DNA of 42,680 nt, from positions 1-42,680 of the forward strand of contig JAHHGS010000105.1 of assembly GCA_019359715.1 (NCBI GenBank), in the 5' to 3' direction. The notes beneath the pieces are model-generated. The model ran no database searches, was not told the origin of the DNA, and saw nothing but the letters and a program-made list of their open reading frames with translations. A program made the translations under genes and the position numbers. This DNA is from Aphanocapsa sp. GSE-SYN-MK-11-07L. GTDB taxonomy: Bacteria; Cyanobacteriota; Cyanobacteriia; Thermosynechococcales; Thermosynechococcaceae. Positions 3,779-42,552 of this stretch are shown here, piece by piece (position 1 is the first letter of the stretch; each line of letters starts with the position of its first letter).

Positions 3779-5074
3779 ATGCTTTTGCCTGCTAGTGCTG
3801 AATTTATCGACCTTTGCCGCACTCAGGTAGACTTGGTCGTCCAAAGTTTAAGGGCATCTGCGAGCGCTGTTTACTTAACTGAAGAGTTTGCAGAATCGCT
3901 CCAAACTCAACTGGTGCCAATTGTGGTTTATCCCGACGATGTTGAACCCTCTAGATTGCAATTGCCTGCGCCACGTTTGCCTTCAGAGGATGACTCTCTC
4001 AGCGCTAATCCGAACGGGCCTAAAAAATCTCGCCCTTCAGCGCTGCCGAAACAGCCCTCGGCAGCAACGCTTGAGGTGTTTCGAGGACAACCAGAGCGGA
4101 TGGTTTTGCCTTTGATGCATGAAGATTTGGTGTTTGGCTTGTTGGTGGTTGCGCGTGAAAACCAGCAGTGGAGCGCCTGGGAGCAAACACAACTAGAGCG
4201 CGTCGCCCATACCCTGGCGATCGCCTGTGTCTTAGACCAGCGCCAGCAGTGGGCCTTAAGCGCCGACTTTGAGCAGCGATCGCTGCATACCCAGCAGTAC
4301 CAAACCTTAGCCAACCTGCTGCACCAGTTTCGCAACCCGCTCACCACCCTGCATACCCTGGCTAACCTGTTGCTAAAGCGGCTGGTGCCGACTGATCCGA
4401 ACCGTCGCTTAGCGACCAGCATGATTCAAGAGAGCGATCGGCTCCAGACGCTGCTCCAGCAGTTTGACCAGTCAATTGACTTAGGGGAAGCCGCTCTAGA
4501 GCAAGCTCCTGACCCGACACCCGGACTCAAACGCCTGCCGGCTAGCCCACCAACGCTGTTGCTTCCTTCCAGTATTGGGACAAATCTACAGTTCCAGCCC
4601 TGTTGGATCGCCGATGTCTTGCACCCTCTGCTTGATTCTGCGACGGCGATCGCTCAAACTCGGCAGCTTACCTTTGAAGCTCAGATCCCGCCGGAACTGC
4701 CGCCGGTTCAAGCTGACCCGCAGGCCCTACAGGAAATTTTCAGCAACCTGATTGACAATGCTCTCAAGTACAGTCCGGCCGGGCAATCTGTCCAAATTGA
4801 AGTCAGTCGTGATCCCCAAATTCAACAGCAGGCGGTCGCAGTTCAAGACACTGGTTATGGCATTCCGGCTGTCGATTTACCCCACCTATTTGAGCGCCAC
4901 TATCGGGGAGTCCAATCTGAAGGAGAAATTCCCGGTACAGGCTTAGGGCTGGCGATCGCCCAAGATTTAATTCAGCAAATGCACGGCACCCTAAGCGTGA
5001 TTAGCCCTAGCGATCCCAAAAATCTCACTCACCCTGGCAGCAAGTTTGTGGTCTGCTTACCAGAAGTGAGTTAG
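3779..5074 (+). CDS. hik2: Soluble GAF-domain sensor histidine kinase, Hik2/CSK-like
   Basis: 431 residues with no membrane segment. Residues ~1-155 form a GAF-like sensor with an early cysteine, Cys13 (DLCRTQ). The H-box is LLHQFRNPLTTL with the phosphoacceptor His182. The ATPase domain has N box NLIDNALKYSP, G1 DTGYGIP, an F box near LPHLFERHY and G2 GTGLGLA. The architecture, length and early Cys match cyanobacterial Hik2, the homologue of the chloroplast sensor kinase, which senses plastoquinone redox state through an iron-sulfur cluster. That family assignment is from memory of the literature and is the less certain part; histidine kinase itself is clear. Its stop codon overlaps that of the convergent iron permease gene. 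Confidence 0.85.
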   Translation: MLLPASAEFIDLCRTQVDLVVQSLRASASAVYLTEEFAESLQTQLVPIVVYPDDVEPSRLQLPAPRLPSEDDSLSANPNGPKKSRPSALPKQPSAATLEVFRGQPERMVLPLMHEDLVFGLLVVARENQQWSAWEQTQLERVAHTLAIACVLDQRQQWALSADFEQRSLHTQQYQTLANLLHQFRNPLTTLHTLANLLLKRLVPTDPNRRLATSMIQESDRLQTLLQQFDQSIDLGEAALEQAPDPTPGLKRLPASPPTLLLPSSIGTNLQFQPCWIADVLHPLLDSATAIAQTRQLTFEAQIPPELPPVQADPQALQEIFSNLIDNALKYSPAGQSVQIEVSRDPQIQQQAVAVQDTGYGIPAVDLPHLFERHYRGVQSEGEIPGTGLGLAIAQDLIQQMHGTLSVISPSDPKNLTHPGSKFVVCLPEVS

Positions 5075-5985
5075 CTCTGATTCAGGCTGGGCTTGACTGA
5101 GCGATGACTGAGGCTTTGAAAGTAGAGCAGAGCCATTGAGACTAGATAGAGCAGATAAGCGATCGCCTGCACTAAATACAGCCGCTCTCGGTAGCCAAAC
5201 AGCGTTTTTAGCAGCACGCCTGGAAACTGTTTGTCGGGCAAGACCTGGCGGGCATCCCAAACTTGCGGGCCCAAAATACAAGCGCCATTGGCTGAGCAGA
5301 GGCCGGCCCAGTCTGGCATGATTTGGCTGAAGTGAAACACGGCTTGATCCAGGTCTTTGAGGGCCGAAATAACCAAACCAGAGACGATAATCAGCAGGAA
5401 AATACCCATCACCTGAAAAAACAAGCCCAGATTAATTCGCACTCCCCAGCCAAACAGCAGGGTGCCAATCAGCACCGCTCCCAGCAGACCCGCCACGCCG
5501 CCCACGACTGGCATCCAGCCGCTTTGAAACTGGGCCATGATGAACAGCACGGTTTCAAAGCCTTCTTGCAGCACCGCAATCAAAATTAGGCTAAAAATCC
5601 CCCAGCGGGCCTGCTGTTGCTCTAGGGTGGTGATCACCGTTTGGGTCAGCTCGGTTTTAACGGAACCGGCTTGCTGTGTCATCCAAACCAGCATCCAGCT
5701 TAACAGGGCGCTCGCGACTAAACTAAAGCCTGCTTCTAGCAGCGGTTCAACCACTTGAGCGTAGGGGCGATCGGAGGCTTGCAGGGCCAACAAAACGCTG
5801 CTGAAAATGACCCCGATTATTGCACTGCCTCCCAGTCCAGCCCCCACTCCGGCATAGACCCAGCGGTTGTACTGCGTTTGCTCAGCTTTTTGCAAACAAG
5901 CTAAGACAATCCCCACGACTAGGGCAGCTTCTACGCCTTCGCGGAGCGTAATCAGAAACGTCGGTAGGGCCAAGCTCCAGTCCAA
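5071..5985 (-). CDS. ftr1: FTR1-family iron permease
   Basis: 304 residues with about seven hydrophobic segments. The first iron-binding motif is REGVE (15-19), close to the canonical REGLE. The second is changed to QEGFE (140-144). Permeases of this family move iron across the inner membrane, usually with an oxidase or EfeO-type partner, which is not seen here. The start is TTG at 5983-5985, 3 bases after the stop of the ferritin-like gene, with a GAGG ribosome site inside that gene's last codons, so translation is probably coupled. Its stop (TTA on the plus strand, 5071-5073) overlaps the kinase stop at 5072-5074. Confidence 0.9.
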   Translation of the reverse strand: MDWSLALPTFLITLREGVEAALVVGIVLACLQKAEQTQYNRWVYAGVGAGLGGSAIIGVIFSSVLLALQASDRPYAQVVEPLLEAGFSLVASALLSWMLVWMTQQAGSVKTELTQTVITTLEQQQARWGIFSLILIAVLQEGFETVLFIMAQFQSGWMPVVGGVAGLLGAVLIGTLLFGWGVRINLGLFFQVMGIFLLIIVSGLVISALKDLDQAVFHFSQIMPDWAGLCSANGACILGPQVWDARQVLPDKQFPGVLLKTLFGYRERLYLVQAIAYLLYLVSMALLYFQSLSHRSVKPSLNQS

Positions 5986-40107: not shown

Positions 40108-40488
40108 CTAAGCCGAAGGCAGGAAAAATTCATTGATGTTGAGCGAGGGCTTCTTGGGTTGATGACAATAGGCAATCAGCCCGCAGATCAGGTTGACGAT
40201 ACAATTGACCGGACTACGATGGCGAGAATGCTCAATCTGCGAAATGTTCTTGAGCTGGTCAATGATCGTCTCAATGATCGATCGCCTGCGAAGCAAGAGT
40301 TTATCCATCAGCGGCATCAATTTATTCTTCATGTTGCGCTTGGGTTTAGTGATCAGTTGAATGCCCATCTGAGTCAACAAGGTTTCAAACAAGGACTGGG
40401 AAACATAGCCCCGATCAGCCAGCACCTTACCCGTTAATCCGTTGAGGAGCTTGAGCACGGGCTGACGGTCATCCGTATTGCCTATACG
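40108..40488 (-). mobile_element. IS982-family transposase C-terminal remnant
   Basis: About 126 residues of an IS982-type transposase: [20 protein letters not shown], then [55 protein letters not shown] and the tail [10 protein letters not shown]. The later catalytic Asp (ADRGY) and Glu (IIETIID) are present, but the N-terminal half with the first Asp is missing. The left end of the element appears to continue past the stop (AGCCCGAACTCAGG on the minus strand), but no matching inverted repeat was found on the other side. It is fused in frame to the start of hicA. Confidence 0.85.
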
Positions 40489-40581
40489 CTGGTGCTTACC
40501 ACCGGGATATGGCCCCTCAAATCCACATTGCTTCAGGTAGCGAATCAGGTCTTTGAGACTGATTGGCTTGAGCGGTGGCAT
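40489..40581 (-). pseudogene. hicA: 5' fragment of hicA toxin gene
   Basis: About 31 residues ([20 protein letters not shown], then [11 protein letters not shown]) match the HicA N-terminus, including the GxxH catalytic histidine at residue 30. The reading frame then runs straight into the IS982 remnant. The remaining ~35 residues of HicA are absent. ATG (40579-40581) overlaps the hicB stop by one base (TAATG), so the toxin was made after the antitoxin in a hicBA order. The toxin is presumably inactive. Confidence 0.8.
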
Positions 40582-40826
40582 TATGCCGCTACCTCTTGAT
40601 GGATATTCAGGTCAATGCCATCTAGCACGGGTAACTCATGCCCTAGCTGTAGTCCTAACAAAACCCAACCCTCTAGAGCATCTTGGAGCATTACCCGACA
40701 TTCTTCTAAGGTGTCCGCATTCGTCAGCACACCCGGGCAATCGGCAATCTCAGCGTAGAAGCTGCCATCTTCGAGAATTTCGTAGGTTGCTTTCTTGAGG
40801 GCAGTCTGGATATAGGCGGTCAGCAT
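40581..40826 (-). CDS. hicB: HicB-type antitoxin
   Basis: 81 residues: opens [20 protein letters not shown], continues with [20 protein letters not shown] and ends in [14 protein letters not shown]. This is the partial RNase-H-like HicB domain, with its conserved ADCPGV motif. No C-terminal DNA-binding domain is present, as in short HicB forms. It is intact while its partner hicA is truncated, so it is now an orphan antitoxin. Confidence 0.88.
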
Positions 40827-40837
40827 TGGGATGCTCC

Positions 40838-41293
40838 TTAAAGTTTGGGCAGAAAACTAGGGCTAAGGATGTCTGGCAATGGGTAGGGAAGCAGTTGAGG
40901 GAATTGTTCAGCAGCCAGAGCTGTCTCAGCGATCGCCTGCTCTAAGGCATCTTGGTAGCACTCGTTAAGCTGTGTTTCAAGATAGGGTTTGAGGCTAGGG
41001 CTATTTTTTAGCGCTTTTCTAATCCGCCGACGGTGCTCAACGATACTCCCCTTCCAATTGGCACAATGCATGGAGGGCTGATACTGCCACTTGAGTAGAT
41101 GCACCAGGAGGATGATTAGGTTGCTCTCCAACGCCTGTTTTTCAGTCTTGCCCAAGCTTGCTATTTCCTCAATAACGTTGTCCCAATCAACCTGATCAAA
41201 TTTTCTTTCTCTCATCAGTTGAGCCATTCTCTCCGTCCAGGCAACATAATCACCTTCGTAGAGCGTTGTGATGGATCTAAGTTCCGTTGTCAT
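40838..41293 (-). CDS. DUF29 family protein
   Basis: 151 residues. LYEGDYVAWTERMAQLMRER and IEEIASLGKTEKQALESNLI, followed by LLVHLLKWQYQP, are diagnostic of DUF29, common and multi-copy in cyanobacteria. It is helical and soluble, of unknown function. GAGGAGAG lies before the ATG. The gene begins 11 bases after the end of an integrase remnant and is followed by hicB at 11 bases, so it may be cargo of the decayed element. Confidence 0.85.
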   Translation of the reverse strand: MTTELRSITTLYEGDYVAWTERMAQLMRERKFDQVDWDNVIEEIASLGKTEKQALESNLIILLVHLLKWQYQPSMHCANWKGSIVEHRRRIRKALKNSPSLKPYLETQLNECYQDALEQAIAETALAAEQFPQLLPYPLPDILSPSFLPKL

Positions 41294-41304
41294 GGCAACT
41301 CTCC

Positions 41305-41457
41305 TCAGTGAAATTCTGGTAGGGTGGGACGGCTGTTCACGTTGCCCGCATAGCTTTTGAAAAGCACCTCTGGATCATGTCCAGACAATTGAGCAACCAT
41401 GAGTGGGTTGTTGCGAGCTGTTAATTCCCTGAAACTCTTACAGAATAATGCTTTTAT
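41305..41457 (-). pseudogene. Tyrosine recombinase (integrase) C-terminal remnant
   Basis: 50 codons: FREL-TARNNPLMVAQLSGHD-PEVLFKSYAGNVNSRPTLPEF, then TGA at 41305-41307. LSGHDP and KSYAG are the His and catalytic Tyr region at the end of phage-type integrases. The frame is closed upstream by a TAG at 41458-41460, directly beside the tRNA remnant, so the rest of the gene is gone. Confidence 0.75.
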
Positions 41458-41461
41458 CTAA

Positions 41462-41510
41462 AGCTCGTGACGAGGATTGAACTCGTGACCTCACCCTTAC
41501 CAAGGGTGTG
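41462..41510 (-). pseudogene. 3' half of a tRNA-Thr (anticodon GGU) gene
   Basis: On the minus strand the anticodon stem CACCC/GGGTG surrounds loop TTGGTAA (anticodon GGT). The variable loop AGGTC, T arm ACGAG-TTCAATC-CTCGT and 3' acceptor strand CACGAGC-T follow in correct register. The 5' half is not a tRNA: TAGTTAT cannot pair with CACGAGC, and the D loop lacks GG. This is the pattern left when an integrative element duplicates the tRNA 3' end as its attachment site. Confidence 0.75.
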
Positions 41511-41561
41511 CTTTATGTCGCTGAAACGCATAACTAGCAAGACTTCTGGGCATTGTCAAAA

Positions 41562-41585
41562 AAGGAGCGGGGTAAGGAGCGGGGT
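41562..41585. repeat. 12-bp tandem repeat
   Basis: AAGGAGCGGGGT is repeated exactly at 41562-41573 and 41574-41585, 52 bases beyond the tRNA remnant. Direct repeats near an integrase site can be arm-type binding sites. Two copies alone do not prove it. Confidence 0.6.
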
Positions 41586-41616
41586 AATCACAACAGTCGT
41601 CACCTGCTGAGAGTGC

Positions 41617-41925
41617 TTACATCTCCTGAGCCAGTCGCTTGATGTCATTGCCAATCGCCTCAACCTTTGTAGCTAGGTCAGGTAGAACCGAAGCATTCTC
41701 TTCAAGTCGCTGCACTCTGTTATTGAGTTGAGAGACATCACCTCTAATCCGAGAGGTATCGCCCTTGATCTCAGTAACTTCTGAGCGCATTCCAGTGATT
41801 TGTGAGCGAATATCAGCAACTAGAGAAATCAACTGCCCAATATCCTCACGTGTGACTGAATTCTGTTTTAGAAGGGCAACGTCAGCTTCTAGGGCTGCAA
41901 CCCGATGGGCAATGTCATTGGTCAT
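41617..41925 (-). CDS. Small coiled-coil protein
   Basis: 102 residues from the ATG at 41923-41925, which overlaps the upstream stop as ATGA. The protein is nearly all heptad coiled coil (VAALEADVALLKQ, RSEVTEIKGDTSRIRGDVSQ, LNNRVQRLEENASVLPDLAT). No membrane or enzyme motif. The coupling to an RHH-like protein suggests a regulator pair or an antitoxin-toxin-like unit. I do not recognise a named family. Confidence 0.7.
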   Translation of the reverse strand: MTNDIAHRVAALEADVALLKQNSVTREDIGQLISLVADIRSQITGMRSEVTEIKGDTSRIRGDVSQLNNRVQRLEENASVLPDLATKVEAIGNDIKRLAQEM

Positions 41926-42119
41926 CCCTTCACCTCTTGATTCAGCAATTCCCGCTGTGCTGCTTCGGTGATGACTCGCCTTAGCCATTCCGCTCGGTTG
42001 GGAACGGAACGTACGGCAGTATCAATATCTCGCTCTACTCGAACTGACAGCGCCTTATCTGCCAACGATACTTCTCCAAGGGAGACAAACTTGCCCTCAT
42101 AGCCTTTAATTCCTGGCAT
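41922..42119 (-). CDS. Small RHH-like DNA-binding protein
   Basis: 65 residues. ALSVRVERDIDTAVRSVPNR followed by AEWLRRVITEAAQREL fits the strand-helix-helix layout of Arc/CopG regulators. The first 20 residues (MPGIKGYEGKFVSLGEVSLA) are an extension. It is coupled by ATGA to the coiled-coil gene. Its upstream region holds three copies of a GTCTACA heptamer. The likely role is local repressor. Confidence 0.7.
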   Translation of the reverse strand: MPGIKGYEGKFVSLGEVSLADKALSVRVERDIDTAVRSVPNRAEWLRRVITEAAQRELLNQEVKG

Positions 42120-42132
42120 ACATAAAACCCGT

Positions 42133-42229
42133 GTCTACAAATACAAGTTTACATCATGTAGACCAGGATTTTAAATAAGTAATTCCAATCATTAAAAACG
42201 CTAAAATTGCTTTCAATGCCGTGTCTACA
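42133..42229. promoter_or_regulatory. Three GTCTACA heptamers between the divergent small genes
   Basis: GTCTACA occurs at 42133-42139 and 42223-42229, and inverted (TGTAGAC) at 42157-42163. The first and third share a longer form, TGTAGACACGG on the minus strand. The third lies 6 bases before TAATAT (42235-42240), a possible -10 for the plus-strand genes. The first two flank the likely leader of the RHH gene. They are good candidates for operators of the RHH protein. Confidence 0.55.
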
Positions 42230-42244
42230 TGACATAATATAAGC

Positions 42245-42322
42245 ATGAAAACAAAAGAGAGCGCTCCAAACCCAGAAAAATTCAAGCGCTCTCTACCCCA
42301 ACTAAGAAGTTCCCTGCAATGA
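42245..42322 (+). CDS. 25-residue leader-type ORF
   Basis: ATG at 42245; the peptide begins MKTKESAPNPEKFKRSLPQL and ends RSSLQ. The stop TGA (42320-42322) overlaps the next ATG as ATGA. The ORF encloses a perfect 10-bp hairpin. No ribosome site is visible, and a TAATAT lies only four bases upstream, so this may instead be untranslated leader. The coupling overlap favours translation. Confidence 0.35.
   Translation: MKTKESAPNPEKFKRSLPQLRSSLQ
42256..42294 (+). promoter_or_regulatory. Perfect 10-bp hairpin in the leader of the cysteine-rich gene
   Basis: AGAGAGCGCT (42256-42265) pairs exactly with AGCGCTCTCT (42285-42294) across a 19-base loop. It ends 24 bases before the ATG at 42319. No T-run follows, so it is not a standard terminator. 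It could control translation of the cysteine-rich gene or bind a protein. Confidence 0.55.
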
Positions 42323-42552
42323 CTGAAATCTATGATGAGTTCAATGAATCGCCAGATCCTCTTGCGATTTGCCTTGTTTTGGTAGAGCCAGAAACAGCCC
42401 CACCGCCACAATGTGGCAATTGCAGATGGTTTGTTCAGTCCGAGTGGCATCGCTCAGTCTTTGAGGGCAAAACGGGGTACTGCTGGACGGTAAATCAGGG
42501 CCGCCGCAAAACGGCCACCTGTGCTGATCACGAATTTAACGATGAGTTTTAA
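42319..42552 (+). CDS. Small cysteine-rich (zinc- or iron-sulfur-binding) protein
   Basis: 77 residues. Cys32 and Cys35 (QCGNCRWFVQ), Cys55 (KTGYCWTVNQ) and Cys68 (TATCADHEF) form a CX2C-X19-C-X12-C pattern. This layout, with a Gly before the third Cys and an aromatic after the last, is frequent in small phage and prophage proteins. It could hold a metal. It lies on the opposite strand to the RHH/coiled-coil pair and ends four bases before the IS3-like element begins. Confidence 0.6.
   Translation: MTEIYDEFNESPDPLAICLVLVEPETAPPPQCGNCRWFVQSEWHRSVFEGKTGYCWTVNQGRRKTATCADHEFNDEF

Follow-up and report, generated by a model that had tools for sequence, protein, structure and literature searches.

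A tRNA-Thr(GGU) 3' fragment as the probable right attachment site of a phage-satellite-like element in Aphanocapsa sp. GSE-SYN-MK-11-07L

Features at the tRNA-Thr fragment

The stretch of DNA analysed here (the window) is the whole 42,680-nt contig C105 of the Aphanocapsa sp. GSE-SYN-MK-11-07L draft genome, and the features of concern lie close to its high-coordinate end (Table 1). In their midst, the minus strand reads AAAGCACACCCTTGGTAAGGGTGAGGTCACGAGTTCAATCCTCGTCACGAGCT, which corresponds to the 3'-terminal 54 nt of a tRNA-Thr (anticodon GGT) and has no tRNA 5' half beside it. The 3' part of this tRNA had been recognised in the first-pass annotation, which set its limit slightly short at 41510, and it is genuine: a BLAST search of the same genome (5.1 Mb in 159 contigs, 99.5% complete) returned as the sole other close copy a segment of an intact tRNA-Thr(GGU) gene located on contig C116 (C116:27422-27493; 54/56 bases, E 7.6e-20). 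The intact gene with a near-identical 3' segment, which that annotation had proposed to look for elsewhere in the genome, is therefore present; the two differences concern one D-arm base and one acceptor base. No tRNA is called by ARAGORN anywhere in the window, and against the Rfam tRNA model the piece reaches 23.5 bits, below the gathering score of 29, with a match that begins only at model position 9, so that the piece is a fragment and not a whole tRNA hidden by misread bases, an objection raised earlier. Searches of plasmid and phage collections yielded short matches to tRNA-Thr-like sequence and nothing more, and among IMG/VR contigs carrying the tRNA-Thr motif a weak integrase similarity was seen in two.

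Table 1. Features of the window around the tRNA-Thr fragment, by decreasing coordinate
Feature	Position	Strand	Evidence
Multicopy insertion sequence, right end, truncated where the contig stops	42557-42680	-	22 matches in the genome
77-aa gene, assigned to the element by position	42319-42552	+	Position
65-aa gene, right-end element gene	41922-42119	-	Homology and position
123-aa coiled-coil protein, element gene by position	41617-41988	-	ORF between right arm and 65-aa gene
Element right arm adjoining the core	41516-41600	-	Alignment to C107 right arm; motif; TACCCCG pair
3' fragment of tRNA-Thr(GGU), tRNA positions 19-72, attachment core (almost certainly attR)	41515-41462	-	BLAST, ARAGORN, Rfam
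Left-arm-like segment after the tRNA end, with motif ATTCTGTAAGAGTTTCAGGGAA at 41446-41425	41425-41461	-	Weak motif and alignment match
C-terminal remnant of a tyrosine integrase of another subfamily; ca. 40 codons and stop, with catalytic-Tyr region LSGHDPEVLFKSYAG	41305-41427	-	C-terminal homology
DUF29 protein	40838-41293	-	PF01724, E 9.8e-52
HicB-like/UPF0150 antitoxin	40581-40826	-	PF21748, E 6e-28

On the low-coordinate side of the core, the integrase tail is up to 61% identical to the C-termini of integrases of 366-405 aa from many cyanobacteria, so that the integrase end reported there is genuine. The homology begins at ca. residue 9-10 of the open frame (ca. 41427) and continues to the stop, which places it ca. 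35 bp away from the tRNA piece rather than the 4 bases first noted, and the first codons of the frame may be att-arm sequence. Full-length relatives of this integrase are encoded mostly just downstream of tRNA-Ala, -Pro, -Val or -Thr genes and in the same orientation, with tRNA-Thr(GGU) as the neighbour at four loci (L109, L121, L127 and L128, of which L121 and L128 apparently represent one assembly). Compared with other integrases of its own genome, the tail reaches at most 48% identity, and only 34% with the C-terminus of the integrase found on C116 (see below); the two belong to different subfamilies. Between the tail and the core, a match to motif ATTCTGTAAGAGTTTCAGGGAA has the orientation that would be expected and lies close to the predicted distance from the tRNA (shuffle p 0.0018), and the segment as a whole weakly resembles the left arms of two paralogous elements on contigs C107 and C144 (local alignment p 0.007 and 0.023, respectively). 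Elsewhere, in Drouetiella hepatica and PMM_0036 (L127, L128, G388:C34:4731-4778 and G389:C476:3133-3180), the order tRNA-Tyr, tRNA-Thr, integrase was observed together with tRNA-Thr 3' fragments on other contigs, which are likely attR sites.

Further from the core on the same side, the DUF29 protein occurs in 14 copies in the genome, and a relative with 50% identity is found with a HicB-like gene just inside the attR of another genome of the class (G013). The pair formed by DUF29 and HicB (40581-41293) could be cargo of an older element or could be host genes. Next to it, on the minus strand (40108-40581), a frame opens as a hicA-like toxin gene but from residue 34 onward matches an IS982-type transposase, whereas the adjoining hicB-like gene is open; an IS has evidently disrupted the toxin and spared the antitoxin.

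Of the small genes flanking the fragment, which the first-pass annotation took for former cargo, those on the high-coordinate side (41617-42552) are element genes, by homology and position for the 65-aa gene and by position for the other two. The 65-aa gene shares 56% identity with a 69-aa gene of the C107 element that lies ca. 1 kb from its right end, and 78% over 28 aa with one located inside the attR of G013. The 123-aa protein has low-specificity coiled-coil matches only, and the 77-aa gene has no relative in the 387 other genomes of the class and a single 56% paralogue in its own genome, on contig C97. Around CCGTGTCTACA (42123-42237), upstream of the 65-aa gene, inverted repeats overlap with direct ones and are perhaps candidate operator sites of the 65-aa product. 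An element-like order that includes no visible integrase was also seen in another genome (G010:C457, 1591-2081; L091), where a stretch related to the 65-aa gene begins no more than 15 bp after an intact tRNA-Thr and is itself followed by a coiled-coil gene.

The left end on C116 and paralogous elements

On C116, a tRNA-Tyr, the intact tRNA-Thr, a 370-aa tyrosine integrase (int370), a DUF927 helicase/primase and two TerS-like genes follow each other in the same direction. The integrase (Phage_integrase PF00589, E 6.7e-20) is directly downstream of the tRNA-Thr, as expected for an island whose tyrosine integrase lies inside the element beside the rebuilt tRNA. The tRNA pair is preceded by host genes, from our reading nitrite reductase-like and nitrate transport-like ORFs. 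On C116 we thus have an integrated element at its left end, where the tRNA has been rebuilt, and int370 is most likely the integrase that matches the attR of the window.

C116 and C105 both terminate in one type of IS, the former with its left end and the latter with its right end, in compatible orientation and with the same three flanking bases, CTC. This match of flanks does not discriminate, since other contig pairs also agree at three bases, and complete copies of the joining IS display no clean target duplication. We infer that a single insertion has one end on each of the two contigs, with an IS linking them, the IS flanks themselves being only consistent with it. If both were joined directly, the element would measure ca. 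10 kb plus the IS. The window provides the right end of an element that the draft assembly splits over contigs. Here tRNA-Thr and its 3' fragment lie on separate contigs; in the C107 paralogue and in a genome from another cyanobacterial family (G064, see below) gene and fragment share one contig.

The C107 paralogue is a complete element (C107:5037-22900; L204, L003) that extends from an intact tRNA-Pro(CGG) (5037-5110) to a 3' piece of tRNA-Pro at the far end. Its integrase shares 61% identity with the C116 one, three further C116 genes have relatives in it, and it carries a terS-like gene, terL and a type I restriction-modification system, together with what we take, by reading, to be a PIN-type toxin pair. 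Just outside its attR, a second copy of the left arm occurs with no integrase attached (z 24.5 to the C116 left arm), so that layering has seemingly taken place twice in this genome. A third integrase of this kind, which shares 66% identity with the C116 one, lies directly downstream of tRNA-Ala(GGC) and is associated with the same arm sites (C144:1461-2773; L026); a right end for the C144 element was not found.

These paralogues define what flanks the tRNA-Thr fragment in the window. The 85-bp right arm aligns with the 100 bp adjoining the tRNA-Pro piece of C107 with a score of 81 (shuffle mean 16.3, z 21.6, 0/500 shuffles), and the similarity stops where the tRNA pieces, Thr in one case and Pro in the other, start. 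Because the arms are alike while the tRNA pieces differ, the boundary between element end and core is fixed, and the 5' flank of the fragment can be read as the element right arm and the fragment itself as attR. Two further signals lie in this arm. The heptamer TACCCCG occurs twice, 12 bp apart (41568 and 41580), and pairs with this spacing are present in the right arms of the window and of C107 and in the left arms of C116, C107 and C144, where they are putative integrase arm sites. An inverted copy of the left-arm motif AATTAGTAAGGCTTTTGGGGAT is located at 41532-41553; with a motif built only from the left arms of other elements, this very segment ranks first of 85,318 window positions. The window thus holds the right end of an element of the C116 type and is not an empty scar. 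The att-site reading made from the window is correct, and the fragment is almost certainly the attR of the C116/C107-type element family.

A proposed succession of elements and competing readings

Very probably, then, the window contains the attR of an integrative, phage-satellite-like element inserted in tRNA-Thr(GGU), with C116 as its left end and an older, decayed element beyond. In such a history, the tyrosine integrase would recombine the chromosomal tRNA with an attP that includes a copy of the tRNA 3' half; the element would rebuild a whole tRNA at its left end (on C116, tRNA-Thr followed by int370), and the old 3' half would be displaced to its right end, at 41515-41462 of the window. 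An older element at this tRNA would persist beyond the displaced piece as a decayed left end, with an integrase reduced to ca. 40 codons: the second element would have inserted into the rebuilt tRNA and pushed the left end of the previous occupant to the host side of attR. Indeed, the integrase tail sits across the core from the element, to the host side of attR. Tandem integration is favoured by this position, by the subfamily of the tail, by the weak left-arm likeness and by the parallel at C107, and together with decay of the older element it is probable, though less firmly so than the attachment site, the order of events being deduced. What is supported directly is the intact tRNA with its integrase, the displaced 3' piece, the homology of right arm and right-end gene to C107, and the difference in integrase subfamily. 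BLAST detected no third tRNA-Thr fragment in the genome and the second member consists of an integrase tail only, which argues for a decayed remnant rather than a full tandem.

The first-pass annotation had viewed the locus as the scar of a single element whose integrase abuts its own att site. This is mistaken or oversimplified: the tail is of another subfamily and on the host (distal) side, and an element is still present at C116. On that view, fragment and tail would belong to one decayed element with its cargo on the low-coordinate side; the two are indeed adjacent and on the same strand, and tRNA followed by integrase is the normal order in related loci, but a left end should carry a whole tRNA, which is rebuilt there upon integration, whereas the fragment has a C107-type right arm on its 5' side and the tail differs in subfamily from int370, which makes the single-element view quite unlikely. 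Somewhat less improbable, while still doubtful, is that the fragment and the C116 left end do not belong together, the fragment having come from another copy of the element, as its right end, or having been moved by an IS-driven rearrangement. In favour of this, C116 and C105 are distinct contigs, both of them end in a multicopy IS, and two mismatches separate the fragment from the intact tRNA region; yet the assembly holds a single other tRNA-Thr 3' half, the C116 element needs a right end for which no other candidate was found, and the IS ends are compatibly oriented.

The succession of a tRNA 3' piece and an integrase C-terminus also recalls a split integrase of the SSV type, in which attP lies inside the integrase gene and the C-terminal part is left next to the tRNA piece. 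An in-frame TAG stop separates the two here, with ca. 40 codons remaining, and the integrase genes of relatives are uninterrupted and downstream of a whole tRNA; this very improbable candidate was rejected on these grounds. One could also take the fragment for a tRNA pseudogene, whether degenerate or duplicated, that plays no part in integration. Its 5' side allows a poor D-arm to be drawn, and the shared TTTCAG is like the CTCAG of the tRNA D-arm. The same flank, however, stands beside the tRNA-Pro fragment at C107, so that it is element sequence and not an eroded tRNA half, and the C107 comparison refutes the pseudogene, whose probability is practically nil.

Known systems and related loci in other genomes

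With regard to the preferred reading, an attR of the C116-type element next to an older remnant, the site is a real att site of an ordinary kind, produced by a known mechanism but with an unusually clear layered history. Partial tRNAs resulting from element integration are common in prokaryotes (PMC9897764), and the present fragment resembles those described there, which come mainly from archaeal genomes and were considered in relation to annotation errors, unlike the case reported here. In the Islander collection, 3760 of 3919 islands have a 3' fragment, 2083 are anticodon-centred and 125 are tandems of two or more (PMC4383910). If C116 and the window are taken as one insertion, the locus is like these islands in having a whole tRNA at one end, a displaced 3' fragment in the same orientation at the other and a tyrosine integrase; crossovers in the anticodon region and tandem arrays are both known among them (PMC4383910). 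The locus differs in that its two ends, on C116 and in the window, lie on different contigs and that the second tandem member is a remnant only.

Genes of the satellite type are int, the DUF927 helicase and TerS-like genes on C116, and int, terS-like and terL on C107. The gene content, a small element with an integrase, a replication helicase/primase and terminase genes, is reminiscent of phage satellites such as PICI, cfPICI, PLE, PICMI and Tycheposons, as is the defence cargo represented by the type I RM system of C107 (PMC11389934). No capsid gene was recognised in the C107 or C116 stretches, the C116 element being incomplete in the assembly. The tRNA-Thr, -Pro and -Ala elements of this genome have arms and arm-site spacing in common and differ in the tRNA core, and such paralogues would offer a handle on how the target choice of an integrase changes. 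It is conceivable, though rather unlikely, that these related satellite-like elements, at least three in number, represent an undescribed family of cyanobacterial tRNA-targeting phage satellites that switch target tRNA, keep their arms and repeatedly stack at the same tRNA. On the tandem reading, the letters of the genome by themselves would show how successive elements pile up and decay at one cyanobacterial tRNA gene.

An empty site was not found: among the nearest genomes compared, which all belong to the same family and have a scrambled gene order, genes around tRNA-Tyr/tRNA-Thr or around nanE orthologues match neither side of the window. Comparable loci occur elsewhere. In G064, an intact tRNA-Thr (395900-395972), an integrase starting ca. 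160 bp beyond it (from 396130) and, 18 kb away, a tRNA-Thr 3' piece (413878-413923) are found on one contig and on the same strand, and the similarity of the fragment flank to that of the window does not exceed that of shuffles. The pattern TTCAG-gap-CCCTTGGTAAGGG is matched in 4 of 388 genomes of the class. In G013 and G023, the 5' flank of the tRNA-Thr 3' pieces resembles that of the window (score 30 each, 0/500 shuffles), and G023 further has an intact tRNA-Thr followed by the N-terminal part of a relative of int370 (58%). In this last genome (L088, L087), the 3' fragment is located at C53:23645, and the intact tRNA-Thr with the int370-like N-terminal half at C25:9224-9403, the latter ending near an IS110-like gene.
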